35,796 bases of DNA from a virus. Made by a program: the position numbers and the translations under genes. Below, in pieces: positions 17,721 through 22,365 of the stretch. The stretch covers positions 1 through 35,796 of the IMG/VR virus record IMGVR_UViG_3300025483_000037; one strand, given 5' to 3'. The first letter of the stretch is position 1. Each line of letters opens with the position of its first letter. Under the pieces are notes generated by a model. It ran no database searches. It was not told the origin of the DNA and saw nothing but the letters and a program-made list of their open reading frames with translations.

Positions 17721-17780
17721 AACACCTACCAACTTGCATAGAGATATGCGAGTTTTTGGTGGTAAAGGGCAATAATGCCC
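17721..17780 (+). promoter_or_regulatory. two hairpins before the DUF932 gene
   Basis: Hairpin 1: AACTTGCATA (17731-17740) pairs with TATGCGAGTT (17745-17754) around a GAGA loop, one G-U pair, then a short T run; it may terminate or pause transcription. Hairpin 2: GGGCA-ATAA-TGCCC (17767-17780). The second is followed at 17787 by TTTAAACTAT and the ATG at 17803, the same order (ATAA-loop hairpin, then AAACTAT leader) seen after the tRNA-like elements at 19.5 and 20.8 kb. The upstream gene's stop also sits in a GGGATT...AATCCC inverted repeat (17699-17715). Confidence 0.65.
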
Positions 17781-17802: not shown

Positions 17803-18723
17803 ATGTATGTAAACTCAAAAGGTCAATTAACAGATGTTCACGCTGACCATGTGAACCCAACACAAGCACAGGAATTGCTTCACAAGTTTAACCTCGATTG
17901 GAAGGTTAAGAAATATCCTTTATCATTTACACCATCAACACATTTTCCTTCTGTTGAAACCGATTTCTTCGGAGTTGTTAGAACTGATAACAACGATTGC
18001 TTTGGTGCATTCACAGACCAATACGAAACTTTCCAAAACTCTGAACTTGCTGAACTAGTTCTAGAGATTGCCGACACAATCGGTCAACCTATCTCAAACG
18101 GACAAGAGTTCAAAGGAGGTAGAAAAGTAATGTTACAGGTAGACTTAAATCCTGTAAAAATTGGCGATGATACTATCACTAGAAAAGCAACTGCTATTAA
18201 TTCTCATGATGGTTCTACTTCATTACGATGGGGAACTACAGGAACGACTATTTCATGTGCTAATCAATTTAGCGCAATCAGTAAAGAACTAGAGAACTCT
18301 GTAAGACACACGAGAAATATGAGAGATGCTATCGCTAGGTCTCTACGCATTATAGAGAATATGGAACAGGCTGATAAGTCTCTATTTGAAATCTTCTCTT
18401 CTATGACAGATTATAAGGTCACCCAAAAACGAGTAAACGAAACGATTAATATGATTACAGGCGTTGATGTTACTATGGGCGAACTTAATGCTAGAGACAA
18501 GTACTCTACTAGGAAACTAAATCAGACTCAGGATTTAGTTCAATCTATTGTAAAAGAAATGTCTTACAAAGGTCAAACGCTATGGGGATTGTTTTCAGGT
18601 GTAACTCATTACACTACTCATAAAGGTGGCTCAGATAGAACTAGAGAAGAGTCTAAGTATGTTGGAGGTCTTCAAAGGCTAGACCAAAAAGTCTTCAACA
18701 AGTTTGCGACACTAGTAGCGTAA
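17803..18723 (+). CDS. DUF932 / phage-plasmid-like protein, 306 aa
   Basis: Matches the DUF932 family (also known as phage/plasmid-like TIGR03299): FFGVVRTDNNDCFGAFTDQY followed by ETFQNSELAELVLEIAD, the characteristic 'YxxxQN' block, then a GGRKVMLQVDL strand, TTISCANQFSAISKE, and an all-helical C-terminal half. Members are widespread in phages and plasmids; their role is not established, with DNA-binding or anti-defence functions proposed. The gene contains one GGTCACCC motif (18417-18424). It is followed directly by tRNA-like element 1. Confidence 0.85.
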   Translation: MYVNSKGQLTDVHADHVNPTQAQELLHKFNLDWKVKKYPLSFTPSTHFPSVETDFFGVVRTDNNDCFGAFTDQYETFQNSELAELVLEIADTIGQPISNGQEFKGGRKVMLQVDLNPVKIGDDTITRKATAINSHDGSTSLRWGTTGTTISCANQFSAISKELENSVRHTRNMRDAIARSLRIIENMEQADKSLFEIFSSMTDYKVTQKRVNETINMITGVDVTMGELNARDKYSTRKLNQTQDLVQSIVKEMSYKGQTLWGLFSGVTHYTTHKGGSDRTREESKYVGGLQRLDQKVFNKFATLVA

Positions 18724-18730
18724 ACGGATT

Positions 18731-18787
18731 TACTAGATTGGATGTAGGGAGGTTCGATTCCTCCCCTAGTATCAATGCAATATTGCA
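18731..18787 (+). ncRNA. tRNA-like minihelix 1 plus ATAT-loop hairpin
   Basis: Acceptor-like stem TACTAG (18731-18736) / CTAGTA (18666+100: 18766-18771); T-arm-like stem GGGAGG (18747-18752) / CCTCCC (18760-18765) with a 7-base loop TTCGATT that fits the tRNA T-loop consensus (T54 T55 C56 R57 A58). Only 10 bases (attggatgta) stand where the D and anticodon arms would be. It starts 8 bases after the DUF932 stop. A second hairpin, TGCA-ATAT-TGCA (18776-18787), follows, and then TTAAAACTATATAAT before the next ATG. Confidence 0.75.
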
Positions 18788-18807
18788 GATTATTAAAACT
18801 ATATAAT

Positions 18808-19032
18808 ATGAAAACATTTAAAATTTTACAATTAACCTTTTTAACTCTTGGTACTGCATTTGTCATATCGGCTAGTGTAAGAATGTTGTTTTTTCTTACA
18901 AGTGAGATTAATTCATTTGCTCAGTTACTAACCTTTACTTTACTCGCATCATTTATCTTATTTCTTTACTATGCTATTCTTACTATGGTAATTGGATTAT
19001 GGAAAGATGCACTAACTAAAAAAACTATATAA
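18808..19032 (+). CDS. two-TM membrane protein, 74 aa
   Basis: ATG chosen at 18808 because it follows the repeated leader TTAAAACTATATAAT; an upstream ATG at 18775 would lie inside the hairpin. Two hydrophobic spans (about residues 5-27, LTFLTLGTAFVISASV, and 40-62, LLTFTLLASFILFLYYAILT) with a short hydrophilic loop. Both the small size and early position suggest a host-membrane-targeting protein; function unknown. Confidence 0.7.
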   Translation: MKTFKILQLTFLTLGTAFVISASVRMLFFLTSEINSFAQLLTFTLLASFILFLYYAILTMVIGLWKDALTKKTI

Positions 19033-19033
19033 G

Positions 19034-19471
19034 ATGGCACAGAATACAAAAGAGATTACACTTTGGGCAAGGCAATGCTCAGTAACAGGACAAGGAATGA
19101 TTGCTGGATATGTTTGGGATGATGGATGTTTCTATTGTGTTGATGATGATAAGATTGCTAATGCTGAATTTAGAAAAGACAGAGAACATATCATAAGTTA
19201 TATACCAAAAAATATAACTGAGATTGATTTCTTTGATGATTATATTGAGGAAGATGAAGAAGAATATTTGTCTGCAATAGAAAGAGTAAAACAAAACAAA
19301 GATACTGATGAGGATTTAAAAATTCTTTCTTACTTATTTGGTTTACACTACTACACAGAATGGTTAGAAGATGATGATATTCAGTATGCTGAGATAGATG
19401 GCGTAATGTATGAAGAAGGTACAGATGAATTTGATTTGGCTATTGCTGAAGAGAAGGTCACCCAAAATTAA
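19034..19471 (+). CDS. acidic unknown protein, 145 aa
   Basis: Starts MAQNTKEITLWARQCSVTGQ. The N-terminal block CSVTGQGMIAGYVWDDGCFY has two or three Cys and looks like a small folded module; the remainder is strongly acidic (DFFDDYIEEDEEEYLSAIER, and WLEDDDIQYAEIDG), as in DNA-mimic or other early phage proteins. The last codons are formed by a GGTCACCC motif (19456-19463). Its TAA directly abuts tRNA-like element 2. Function unknown. Confidence 0.7.
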   Translation: MAQNTKEITLWARQCSVTGQGMIAGYVWDDGCFYCVDDDKIANAEFRKDREHIISYIPKNITEIDFFDDYIEEDEEEYLSAIERVKQNKDTDEDLKILSYLFGLHYYTEWLEDDDIQYAEIDGVMYEEGTDEFDLAIAEEKVTQN

Positions 19472-19523
19472 GGATAGCATGGTGCAAGGGAGGTTCGATT
19501 CCTCCCTATCCACGACATAAGTC
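19472..19523 (+). ncRNA. tRNA-like minihelix 2 plus ATAA-loop hairpin
   Basis: Begins on the base after the upstream stop codon. Acceptor-like stem GGATAG (19472-19477) / CTATCC (19506-19511), T-stem GGAGG (19489-19493) / CCTCC (19501-19505), loop TTCGATT (19494-19500). The 11-base connector catggtgcaag replaces D and anticodon arms. The 3' end reads AC then GAC-ATAA-GTC (19514-19523), a 3-bp hairpin with an ATAA loop, then ACATAATTTAAACTATATAAT before the ATG at 19545. Confidence 0.8.
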
Positions 19524-19544
19524 ACATAATTTAAACTATATAAT

Positions 19545-19859
19545 ATGGAAACAATGATTCCCATTACTAAAAAATCCTCTTACAAATTAGAGGTTTGGCA
19601 TTGCGATGTCAATAGCAGATTTGTAAACATGACTCTAACTTTTTGTTCTGAGTATGGATGCAATGAATATGATTTCAGATTAGATACTACAATTGATCTT
19701 GTCGAAATATCCTGTAATGATTTTAAATATCATACTGCATTCAAGAACAAAAGATTCAAACTCCTTGCTGAATGTCTTTACATGAGTCAAACAAAACTTA
19801 TTGACAAACTAAGAACTAAAGCACAAATGGAATTATCATATGAATTATTACCATTTTAA
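19545..19859 (+). CDS. unknown protein, 104 aa
   Basis: Starts METMIPITKKSSYKLEVWHC with the AAACTATATAAT leader. Alternating beta-type N-terminus with several Cys (WHC, TFCSEYGC, ISC) and a helical C-terminal half (KLLAECLYMSQTKLIDKLRT). No family recognised; one of a series of small early genes. Confidence 0.65.
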   Translation: METMIPITKKSSYKLEVWHCDVNSRFVNMTLTFCSEYGCNEYDFRLDTTIDLVEISCNDFKYHTAFKNKRFKLLAECLYMSQTKLIDKLRTKAQMELSYELLPF

Positions 19860-19871
19860 AAACTATATACT

Positions 19872-20150
19872 ATGACACAGAATTTAAAACAAAAAGATTT
19901 AGCATTAATTACATCTCTTATTTTACATGAGGATATTTTAGGTGGGACAATCTTTCAAACATTCGACAGAGCGTATGCTATTGCTGAGAAATTCCAATAC
20001 ATCTATCCTCACGATTTCAAATGGGAAGGCGAAGATTTAGAATTTGATGAAGCAGTAATATTATTTACAAAACAACAAATAGAAATCTCTTTAGATAAGT
20101 TCGAAAAAGAAATAGAAGAGATTGAAAGAATAGAAAAAGACAATAATTAA
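19872..20150 (+). CDS. unknown helical protein, 92 aa
   Basis: Starts MTQNLKQKDLALITSLILHE, sharing the MTQNLK start with the next gene. All-helical; the C-terminus is a charged coiled-coil-like tail (LDKFEKEIEEIERIEKDNN). Twelve bases after the preceding stop. Confidence 0.65.
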   Translation: MTQNLKQKDLALITSLILHEDILGGTIFQTFDRAYAIAEKFQYIYPHDFKWEGEDLEFDEAVILFTKQQIEISLDKFEKEIEEIERIEKDNN

Positions 20151-20161
20151 AACTATATAGT

Positions 20162-20404
20162 ATGACACAGAATTTAAAAGTAACATCCGTAAGGTATTTT
20201 GAAACTCGCAGAGGTTTAGGATACGAGTGTAGAACTAACGTAAAAGGTCTTTCAATATGGAATGATGGAAATGGTGGAGGAACTTATTTTAGTGGCAATG
20301 AGTATTCTAAAAGTGGAAGAGAAATTGGCATTTATTCTAAAAAATATAACGAACAAGAATTAGAAAGTCTAATTGATGAATACGAAAATGTTAAAACTAT
20401 ATAA
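20162..20404 (+). CDS. unknown protein, 80 aa
   Basis: Starts MTQNLKVTSVRYFETRRGLG; a Gly/Tyr-rich beta-type middle (TNVKGLSIWNDGNGGGTYFS) and a short C-terminal helix. The start cassette is nearly identical to the neighbouring genes, although the rest of the protein is unrelated, showing that the cassette moves or is copied separately from the body. Confidence 0.65.
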   Translation: MTQNLKVTSVRYFETRRGLGYECRTNVKGLSIWNDGNGGGTYFSGNEYSKSGREIGIYSKKYNEQELESLIDEYENVKTI

Positions 20405-20405
20405 T

Positions 20406-20603
20406 ATGCCACAGAATCTAAAACAAGAATCATTTGATGATTTAAAACAAAGGCTTGTCCACTACTATGAGGTAGACTTAGGCAACTGCGAAATGTCCAA
20501 CGAAATGTGGATTGAAGAACTAGCAAAGTCAATGTACTATATAAATTATAAAGAGAATTTTATAGAGCAACACGAAGCATACAAAAAAATGTGTAACGAG
20601 TAA
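20406..20603 (+). CDS. unknown acidic helical protein, 65 aa
   Basis: Start at 20406 (MPQNLKQESFDDLKQRLVHY) chosen because the cassette AAAACTATATAAT precedes it; the longer upstream reading would begin inside the previous gene. Helical, with Trp/Tyr-rich patches (MWIEELAKSMYYINY). Confidence 0.65.
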   Translation: MPQNLKQESFDDLKQRLVHYYEVDLGNCEMSNEMWIEELAKSMYYINYKENFIEQHEAYKKMCNE

Positions 20604-20618
20604 ATTAAAACTAAAATT

Positions 20619-20786
20619 ATGAATGTAAAACAATTAATAAAACAACTTGAAAATCTTCCACAAGACTTACCTATTAGAGTCGTAATGAAGGATGAAAATG
20701 AATGGCTTTACGAGTTAGAGTGTTCAGAAACGGGGGAATCAGGTTACGAAGAATGTGGAGAAGTTAGATTACTAACCACAGAATAA
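20619..20786 (+). CDS. 55-aa unknown protein
   Basis: Starts MNVKQLIKQLENLPQDLPIR, a phrase common in small phage proteins that begin with a helix followed by 'LPxDxPV' and strands (VVMKDENEWLYELE). Leader AAATTAAAACTAAAATT. The stop is one base upstream of tRNA-like element 3. Confidence 0.65.
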   Translation: MNVKQLIKQLENLPQDLPIRVVMKDENEWLYELECSETGESGYEECGEVRLLTTE

Positions 20787-20787
20787 A

Positions 20788-20842
20788 GAGTCACAAGGTG
20801 CATTGGGAGGTTCGATTCCTCCTGACTCACGACAATAATGTC
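20788..20842 (+). ncRNA. tRNA-like minihelix 3 plus ATAA-loop hairpin
   Basis: Acceptor-like stem GAGTCA (20788-20793) / TGACTC (20823-20828), T-stem GGAGG (20806-20810) / CCTCC (20818-20822), loop TTCGATT (20811-20817), 12-base connector caaggtgcattg that shares GGTGCA with element 2. Then AC and GACA-ATAA-TGTC (20831-20842) and TATAATTTAAACTATT before the ATG at 20864. Compared with element 2, all six acceptor pairs are preserved although most bases differ. Confidence 0.8.
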
Positions 20843-20863
20843 ATATAATTTAAACTATTAAAA

Positions 20864-21181
20864 ATGAATAATTTAGTAAAACATCTAGCAGTAGAAAAAC
20901 TGCGAGAGGCTTTGGAATGCCATGATTGGCATTACGAAAGAAGTGATGATTCATCTGTCTATAGAAGAGGTAGAGATGAGTCTGATAACATCCGTAATCT
21001 TATGAATACTATAGGGGATAGAGATAAGGCTATTTCTATGTATAATAAGTATTGCCCTTTTATTGAGTCTAAGGATGAGGTCACCCCAATTTCAGAAAAC
21101 AGGGATGCACCAACTTTGGAAGAGAAATGCATTTCCTTCCTAGAAGAACGAAACTATTATATATCTAAACAAAAATCTTAA
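20864..21181 (+). CDS. unknown protein, 105 aa
   Basis: Starts MNNLVKHLAVEKLREALECH after the TTTAAACTATTAAAA leader. Charged and helical with an Arg/Asp-rich middle (RRGRDESDNIRNLMNTIGDR). A GGTCACCCC motif at 21079 lies in the coding sequence. Two bases before the next gene. Confidence 0.65.
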   Translation: MNNLVKHLAVEKLREALECHDWHYERSDDSSVYRRGRDESDNIRNLMNTIGDRDKAISMYNKYCPFIESKDEVTPISENRDAPTLEEKCISFLEERNYYISKQKS

Positions 21182-21817: not shown

Positions 21818-22070
21818 TGCACTTATCCAATGGCAAGACACAGGAGAGTTTGAGGATGTTATAATTACAACCAACAAAGAAACTAAAGATGAAGATTATA
21901 TTTTCTTCTATTTTCAATCAGTTCAGGAGATCGAAAGTTATAGAAAAATAGGAGTAAATGATTTTAGAGTAGTTAGTTACCTTCCTACTAGAACTAGAGA
22001 TTGGTATCATAAGTTAAGGTCACCCAAACATACTGATGAGAACACAGGTGATTCAATGATGTATATCTAG
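21807..22070 (+). CDS. unknown protein, 87 aa
   Basis: Start at 21807 (MEYNALIQWQDTGEFEDVII) preferred over an ATG at 21768 because it reduces overlap to 11 bases and follows GAGGAGG. A beta-rich small protein with many aromatic residues (DYIFFYFQSVQEIESYR). GGTCACCC at 22018 lies in a different frame here (R-S-P) than in other genes (V-T). Confidence 0.62.
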   Translation: MEYNALIQWQDTGEFEDVIITTNKETKDEDYIFFYFQSVQEIESYRKIGVNDFRVVSYLPTRTRDWYHKLRSPKHTDENTGDSMMYI

Positions 22071-22080
22071 TTCGAAACTA

Positions 22081-22120
22081 AGTTCGATTCCCATCAAGTA
22101 TACTTAGTGGGAATTGAACT
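22081..22120 (+). promoter_or_regulatory. 13-bp hairpin with T-loop-like sequence in its stem
   Basis: AGTTCGATTCCCA (22081-22093) pairs with TGGGAATTGAACT (22108-22120), twelve Watson-Crick pairs and one G-U. The loop contains the palindrome AAGTATACTT (22096-22105). The left arm contains GTTCGATTCC, the same word as the T-arm of the three minihelices, so it may be a rearranged relative. It follows a stop codon directly, in the same kind of position. Confidence 0.65.
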
Positions 22121-22152
22121 CTAGTCTATGTTAATCAAAAAAAATAATAAAA

Positions 22153-22365
22153 ATGGCACACGAAATTAAATTACATGATTTCTTAAAGGACAACATTTTA
22201 GATGTTGTTTCCAAAAGACACAACTACAATCCAACTTGCTTGGAGTATTTAGAATCCACAGAAAAAGATTTGATGCTCACTCTAGCATTTGTTAATTCAA
22301 CAAAAGAGGTAATGCTGAGAATTAAAGAAATTAAAGAAACTAAAAACATAGAGCATGAAGGATAA
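22153..22365 (+). CDS. unknown protein, 70 aa
   Basis: Starts MAHEIKLHDFLKDNILDVVS; helical and charged. Ends in a 11-base overlap with the next gene. The leader is a plain A-rich stretch without Shine-Dalgarno sequence. Confidence 0.6.
   Translation: MAHEIKLHDFLKDNILDVVSKRHNYNPTCLEYLESTEKDLMLTLAFVNSTKEVMLRIKEIKETKNIEHEG

Follow-up and report, generated by a model that had tools for sequence, protein, structure and literature searches.

Minimal tRNA-like minihelices between phage genes: candidate processing marks of polycistronic messages

In bacteriophage T7, ribonuclease (RNase) III sites are intergenic RNA structures that cut the polycistronic messenger RNA (mRNA) of the phage into gene-sized pieces. 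In plant mitochondria, mRNA ends are defined by t-elements via RNase P and RNase Z cutting (PMC11658184, which cites Forner 2007 and Hanic-Joyce 1990). On transfer RNA (tRNA), RNase P grips the elbow and gauges the stack of acceptor and T stems, the D-loop being dispensable and a T-loop or similar loop being required (PMC4919913). Here we analyse a 35,796-nucleotide (nt) stretch of viral DNA (IMG/VR record IMGVR_UViG_3300025483_000037, positions 1 to 35,796; hereafter the window), in which three minihelices, each an acceptor-like stem stacked on a T-arm, lie between genes (Table 1). They belong to an RNA class that is widespread among many unrelated phages, strongly selected and apparently undescribed, and our comparison of their sequences with those of relatives makes it likely that they are minimal tRNA-mimic processing marks in polycistronic phage mRNA, cleaved by the tRNA-maturation enzymes of the host, RNase P, RNase Z or the two together.

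An earlier, sequence-only reading of the window had described three elements with an identical T-arm, and its description largely holds. The 17-nt T-arm GGAGGTTCGATTCCTCC occurs at exactly three places, starting at 18748, 19489 and 20806, where dinucleotide shuffles give an expectation of 0. As had been claimed, the acceptor-like stems (TACTAG/CTAGTA, GGATAG/CTATCC and GAGTCA/TGACTC) differ and yet pair fully, and the helix totals of 12, 11 and 11 base pairs (bp) for elements 1, 2 and 3 agree with the 11-12 paired steps given there; thermodynamic folding recovers the T-arms and, mostly, the outer stems. Two elements were said to start on or within one base of the preceding stop codon, and indeed element 2 begins on the base directly after the TAA at 19469-19471 and element 3 one base past the TAA at 20784-20786, while element 1 begins 7 nt past its stop. 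Two statements need amending. The 3' end ACGA is that of elements 2 and 3, element 1 having TCAA; and of the D and anticodon arms, both reported absent, only the anticodon arm is simply so, since the connectors of all three elements hold a GG (attGGatgta, where the copy reads TTGGA, catGGtgcaag and caaGGtgcattg) that resembles a pared-down substitute for the GG by which a D-loop docks on the T-loop.

A pairing descriptor that combines the connector GG, the T-arm and the outer stem has three matches in the 36-kb window, exactly these elements, and one in 3.2 Mb of shuffled sequence. The TTCGATT loop (TTCRANY) on a stack of about 12 bp is what a tRNA T-arm has; ARAGORN finds no tRNA gene in the window, the Rfam tRNA family likewise stays below threshold there, and none of 4227 Rfam families matches the elements above its gathering threshold. 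One match below threshold, to RF04354 (Plastid-ycf2 5'UTR RNA; E 0.03), is antisense: that family has an outer stem and a hairpin with the complement of the T-arm, on the opposite strand of the elements and in another context, and we ascribe the match to the T-arm palindrome. A terminator or operator, that is, a DNA site, was rejected in view of the orientation, the variable but compensated stems, the constant T-loop and the lack of a T-run. From 2 to 4 nt 3' of each minihelix stands a small hairpin, followed by an AAACTAT...ATG leader. The earlier reading had overlooked these, as well as the GG of element 1, the long hairpin ahead of the DUF932 gene and the candidate hammerhead (Table 1).

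The main argument for a role in processing is that, in relatives of the window phage, other RNA devices occupy the same sites. A recurring module of this lineage consists of a device, a small hairpin and the leader AAACTATATAATATG. Downstream of the gene for a DUF932-family protein, minihelices take the device position in the window and in the records that we label L359, L360, L361 and L428; L351-L355, L358 and L362 have a long RNase III-like hairpin there, and L356 has a hammerhead ribozyme. Upstream of the same gene, the window has a long hairpin where L351 has a hammerhead. Elsewhere in the operon, a tRNA-Arg(TCT) stands directly 5' of the small hairpin and AAACTATATAATATG leader in L353, L354 and L362, and directly 5' of the leader in L359 and L360, and the 3' flanks are near-identical (tRNA-ACAAAGGCAATTAAGCC versus minihelix-TCAAAGGCAATATTGCC). 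The small hairpin is of a shared type, found also 3' of the tRNA, the hammerhead and the long hairpin, and further hammerheads precede the same type of leader, two in L352 and another in L356. Our hammerhead descriptor has seven matches in 3.2 Mb, six of them within the window lineage, against none in 3.2 Mb of shuffled sequence; the matches in L351, L352 and L356 show the CUGANGA/GAAA core, three stems and an NUH cleavage site, and the L356 fold agrees. A tRNA and a hammerhead, if working, are certainly cut or self-cutting, and therefore intergenic RNA cleavage is the simplest common function of these devices. The earlier proposal that the minihelices serve to cut polycistronic mRNA gains strong indirect support from this exchange and from the related elements described below, although RNase P, which that proposal named, is not singled out and RNase Z fits equally.

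That the fold is selected had been argued from covariation among three copies, and a lack of related elements with compensatory changes in other phages had been named as one half of what would refute the reading. Such elements occur in many phages, so that this half did not refute it. An exact T-arm search in IMG/VR, with tRNAs removed, yielded 62 distinct flanked sites, for whose choice the T-arm counted and acceptor pairing did not. At 14 of these 62 sites the outer stem reaches 6 bp or more, compared with 1.33 +- 1.09 (maximum 7 in 2000 rounds) when the 3' flanks are swapped among them; YGGW stands in the connector of all 14 sites with an outer stem versus 15 of 37 stemless ones. Two further pattern scans raise the total to more than 100 non-tRNA copies in about 100 contigs. 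A covariance model had been proposed as a means of finding relatives; our model R1, built from sixteen 44-nt copies, none from the window, recovers all three window elements (E=4.7e-6, 3.3e-6 and 1.2e-3 for elements 1, 2 and 3). For each of the 13 pairs of its alignment, the two loop-adjacent ones excepted, some sequence has both partners altered, the members having been chosen by pairing. Such choice by a pairing descriptor also inflates our covariation tables A2 and A3, and the real tests are the partner swap, the window-free model and the orthologues. The orthologues, one for each of the three elements, lie in L361 and were located via the neighbouring DUF932 protein, so without selection on pairing. 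That of element 3 has compensatory changes in both stems, GAGTCA/TGACTC having become GAGCCA/TGGCTC and the T-stem GGAGG/CCTCC having become GAAGG/CCTTC; in that of element 1, TACTAG/CTAGTA has become TACTGGA/TCCAGTA, again compensatory.

Across copies, the consensus is an acceptor-like stem of 5-8 bp, a connector of 6-15 nt with YGG (NNYGGNNNNNN), no anticodon arm, and a T-arm with a stem of 5-7 bp, usually GG/CC-closed, and a TTCGATT or TTCRANY loop; the acceptor/T stack measures 11-13 bp. In T7-like cyanophages, YGGW accompanies 10 of 10 TTC (UUC) loops versus 4 of 20 TGC (UGC) loops (p=3e-5, or p=1.5e-4 on distinct connectors, which is indicative, the sequences being related). The GG and the T-loop may be in contact, as at an elbow; their coupling matches what a D-loop/T-loop contact would give. 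Both features bear on the alternative that survives best, namely that the elements are uncut mRNA stabilisers, whose stack and small hairpin slow exonucleases or 5'-end-dependent decay without specific cleavage. Compact GC-rich intergenic folds that always stand ahead of the next leader or ribosome-binding site, and whose place long RNase III-like hairpins may take, are in keeping with such a role. However, a barrier needs neither the T-loop nor the connector GG, yet both are conserved and coupled, and replacement by a hammerhead ribozyme or a real tRNA is not expected of a mere barrier; we regard this explanation as improbable.

How would minihelices act as processing marks? The host tRNA-maturation enzymes would recognise the 11-13 bp stack together with an elbow in which the connector GG meets the T-loop, and RNase P would cut at the 5' end of the acceptor-like stem, RNase Z just 3' of that stem, or both. 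The cut would part the mRNA of the upstream gene from that of the downstream gene, which would then begin with or near the small hairpin and the leader with its ribosome-binding site. If the cut falls 3' of the minihelix, the upstream mRNA would end in a fold, and the small hairpin would come to lie near the new 5' end, as with the hammerheads, where it may serve as a 5' protector; if it falls 5' of the minihelix, the fold would stay whole on the downstream mRNA. The support for this reading comes from sequence, fold, covariation, position and device exchange, from which we infer that a cut occurs, which enzymes would make it, that the GG and the T-loop touch at the elbow and what the hairpin does.

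Which enzyme would do the cutting? The coaxial acceptor/T stem of about 12 bp with T-loop and elbow that bacterial RNase P recognises is present (11-13 bp, T-loop, GG coupling). The 3' RCC(A) for the P15 loop is absent: a pyrimidine at position 74 is common and C75 is avoided. Anchored on the T-loop, copies with a 12-bp stack have a 3' flank whose first base is mostly A, whose second is C or T in 98% and whose third is rarely C; CCA follows 3 of 135 elements, the usual sequence being N-Y-(not C) where a tRNA has N-C-C-A. An acceptor/T-arm with no encoded CCA after the discriminator is what RNase Z recognises, and the elements offer it. The near-absence of CCA would make the fragment unlike a finished tRNA and keep its 3' side accessible to RNase Z, whose cutting 3' of the element would fit the anatomy as well as RNase P does.

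Several points weigh against processing by these enzymes. Many copies have a stack of 11 or 13 bp and not 12; an avoided C75, with no 3' RCCA, lowers the affinity for the usual bacterial-type RNase P; stop-adjacent elements would leave the upstream 3' end unprotected if RNase P alone cuts; and our lists of matches rest partly on a descriptor that demands pairing. Among the exchanged devices, the long hairpin is presumed to be an RNase III site solely from its helix length and z-score, the L356 hammerhead scores E 0.02 against RF00163, below the Rfam cut-off, and the window hammerhead at 22027-22132 is a candidate only, which Rfam does not recover.

Copies of the minihelix lie between genes in phages of Bacteroidota (by homology), Prochlorococcus, Streptomyces, Mycobacterium and Gordonia. 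By descriptor and covariance model R2, which was built from the Papyrus and Endor1 copies, Mycobacterium phage Papyrus has 13 in a small-gene operon, where 13 of the 14 gaps of at least 40 nt hold an element, and Streptomyces phage Endor1 has 9, with 9 of 11 gaps occupied. R2 also matches Zemlya and Predator (7 each), Gordonia phage Aleemily (5) and George (1), and more weakly P-SSP7 and S-SBP1. A consensus query finds 68 Streptomyces and 13 Mycobacterium phage records, mostly without an annotated feature under the match. In the GenBank records that we viewed the elements carry no feature, we found no description of the element in phages in the open-access literature, and the elements seem to have been overlooked even in well-studied laboratory phages. 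The T7 record yielded no minihelix, and the named Bacteroidota phages elemoE, phi38:1, phi46:3, Gundel_1 and hemulen no convincing copies, weak matches in elemoE and phi38:1 being dismissed after a check; in P-GSP1 and PseuGesM_254, which had blast matches, the element was not confirmed. Among bacterial and archaeal genomes (257 Gb), the actinophage-type pattern in its exact form, with 18 fixed bases, has 10 matches, which is close to the chance level, estimated at about 7. In Papyrus, we also noted a GOLLD RNA at 50837-51296 (L399:837-1296; Rfam E 8e-52), inside an unannotated 1.2-kb gap.

The strand is uniform within each of eight multi-copy records, which have 44 copies in all, and in Papyrus, Endor1 and the window it is the gene strand. 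Most copies stand 0-15 nt past a stop codon and 12-58 nt ahead of the next start. The elements might instead be decoys, as had been suggested earlier, or sensors: in early operons, they would titrate or monitor RNase P or RNase Z, the enzymes that add CCA to tRNAs or modify them, or a tRNA-targeting host defence. This reading is suited by the generic tRNA shape and by the clusters of Papyrus and Endor1; it is weakened by the strict placement from stop to start, the single orientation on the gene strand and the constant hairpin and leader, none of which a decoy requires, by the mere three elements of the window and by the exchange with hammerheads, which it leaves unexplained, and we think it quite unlikely. 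The position just after a stop and before a start would also suit translation elements that insulate against read-through and reinitiation or aid downstream initiation. However, the elements are common to hosts whose initiation signals differ widely (A-rich leaders, Shine-Dalgarno), and their conserved part is a tRNA elbow for which a tRNA or hammerhead can substitute, making this more doubtful still.

A set of 102 T7-like cyanophages, chosen solely by conserved sequence downstream of the site before the capsid gene, holds graded forms at that one site: a tRNA-Gly in L471, tRNA-Gly-like forms without a D stem in L468, L469, L482, L538 and L547, D-arm forms as in P-SSP7, and minimal GG forms in L008, L504 and L524. 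In 52 of the 102 phages the site has a hairpin with a variable stem and a nearly constant 15-nt loop, CACCTCAGAGTCGGA, which has no Rfam match and is possibly another cleavage device; examples lie at about 2895-2930 in L437 and about 22230-22275 in L125 (S-RIP2). S-SBP1, S-RIP2 and P-SSP7 have no match to the minimal descriptor, their capsid 5' region holding D-arm variants or the conserved-loop hairpin. Moreover, on the reverse strand of L421, before TTTAAACTATATAATATG, a GGATAG/CTATCC minihelix has an insert enlarged to about 40 nt and is, by its form, an intermediate between minihelix and tRNA. No tRNA parent was found for the window elements. The graded series and L421 might suggest that the elements are defunct relics of tRNA genes, or mobile pieces of tRNA that serve as integration sites; this is barely credible, given that more than 100 divergent copies keep full pairing with compensatory changes in both stems and conserve the GG and T-loop, where neutral relics would decay.

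Table 1. Features of the window that bear on the minihelices and their modules.
Feature	Position	Strand	Sequence or remarks
Minihelix 1	18731..18771	+	TACTAG - attggatgta - GGGAGG ttcgatt CCTCCC - CTAGTA; 3' flank TCAA
Minihelix 2	19472..19511	+	GGATAG - catggtgcaag - GGAGG ttcgatt CCTCC - CTATCC; 3' flank ACGA
Minihelix 3	20788..20828	+	GAGTCA - caaggtgcattg - GGAGG ttcgatt CCTCC - TGACTC; 3' flank ACGA
Small hairpin after minihelix 1	18776..18787	+	TGCA-ATAT-TGCA
Small hairpin after minihelix 2	19514..19523	+	GAC-ATAA-GTC
Small hairpin after minihelix 3	20831..20842	+	GACA-ATAA-TGTC
Leader and ATG	18796..18810	+	AAACTATATAAT + ATG; starts gene 18808-19032
Leader and ATG	19533..19547	+	AAACTATATAAT + ATG; starts gene 19545-19859
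Leader and ATG	20852..20866	+	AAACTATTAAAA + ATG; starts gene 20864-21181
DUF932-family protein gene	17803..18723	+	PF06067, E=1.4e-18; upstream of minihelix 1; bait for finding relatives
Long RNase III-like hairpin	17726..17762	+	before DUF932 gene; z -4.8; then small hairpin 17767-17780, leader AAACTATTACACTATG
Candidate type I hammerhead	22027..22132	+	AACATA CTGATGA gaac..gttc GAA acta..tagt C/TATGTT (slash, predicted cut); descriptor match

The remaining features of the window concern the other devices and the leaders. The long hairpin has a helix of 15-19 bp, and in the window, L351-L355, L358 and L362 it conserves CTTGCRYA-GARA-TRYGCGAG ... TTTTTGGTGGTAAA before the small hairpin and leader; because this conservation exceeds what an ordinary RNase III site would call for, the hairpin may have another identity. 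The candidate hammerhead, with a predicted cut after 22126, lies upstream of the gene at 22153-22365 and covers the end of the preceding gene together with the intergenic gap, its stem III bearing a long extra hairpin that includes AGTTCGATTCCC. A clear hammerhead also stands directly 3' of a phage tRNA array in IMGVR_UViG_3300021962_000074 (L299:579-627). A motif, GGTCACCC(C)AA, recurs at 2740-2765, 18411-18436, 19450-19475 and 22012-22037, at about 17198 and 21081, and before the tRNA-Arg of L356, several copies lying just 5' of a processing device (minihelix 2, the hammerhead, the L356 tRNA). Four gene starts (19012-19051, 19850-19889, 20140-20179 and 20384-20423) have in common a leader AAACTATATA.. 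and first codons (M.QN.K), which suggests copied gene starts or copied 5' modules. The terminase of the window phage is 32% identical to terminases of Flavobacterium phages, a resemblance from which we infer its host; blastn of the whole region against named phages gave no match.

More generally, we lean, with less assurance than for the elements themselves, towards a previously unseen RNA-processing layer of tailed phages, in which dedicated tRNA-elbow minihelices would mark a cut at nearly every gene boundary of early operons in phages of at least three bacterial phyla. On the same footing, we favour the view that ribozymes, RNase III hairpins and true tRNAs can take the place of minihelices and the reverse, and that phage mRNA maturation is in the charge of the host tRNA-maturation machinery. 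If this is true, host RNase P or RNase Z is what many phages use to cut their messages, laboratory phages that infect Streptomyces and Mycobacterium among them, and phage hammerheads gain a testable role, since they occupy the same slots as minihelices. As a minimal natural tRNA mimic of about 40 nt with the elbow built in, the elements could also be of use for defining what RNase P and RNase Z require and as a short processing tag.

How do the minihelices compare with described systems? The mascRNA/MENbeta-type structures are eukaryotic and single-copy, have a larger cloverleaf-like fold and form the 3' end of a long non-coding RNA. The RNase III sites of T7 are likewise intergenic structures at cut points of phage mRNA, with another structure and another enzyme. 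Hammerheads (RF00163, RF03152) occupy the same intergenic sites in L351 and L356 and the same module in L352, before the same small hairpin, leader or both; however, they are self-cleaving and of an unrelated fold, the window minihelices having no catalytic core. In mitochondrial tRNA punctuation, intergenic tRNA structures set the cut points of polycistronic RNA, and in relatives of the window phage a genuine tRNA-Arg stands in the module, whereas the phage marks are mostly minihelices that are not tRNAs, mixed with ribozymes and hairpins. Plant mitochondrial t-elements are tRNA-like folds that recruit RNase P and RNase Z at mRNA ends, have no genomic CCA and are not translational tRNAs (PMC11658184). 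Like them, the phage elements are tRNA-like structures in sense direction at mRNA ends or between genes; unlike them, they consist of the acceptor/T stack and GG connector only, come in repeated dedicated sets and occur in bacteriophages. Cleavage has been demonstrated for t-elements, and we do not call the phage elements by that name because they are known here from sequence and their tRNA ancestry is just the graded series at one cyanophage site. By analogy, t-elements and tRNA punctuation are nonetheless what the minihelices would act most like, and, if our reading is true, they are a counterpart of mitochondrial punctuation in bacterial viruses that annotation has overlooked.

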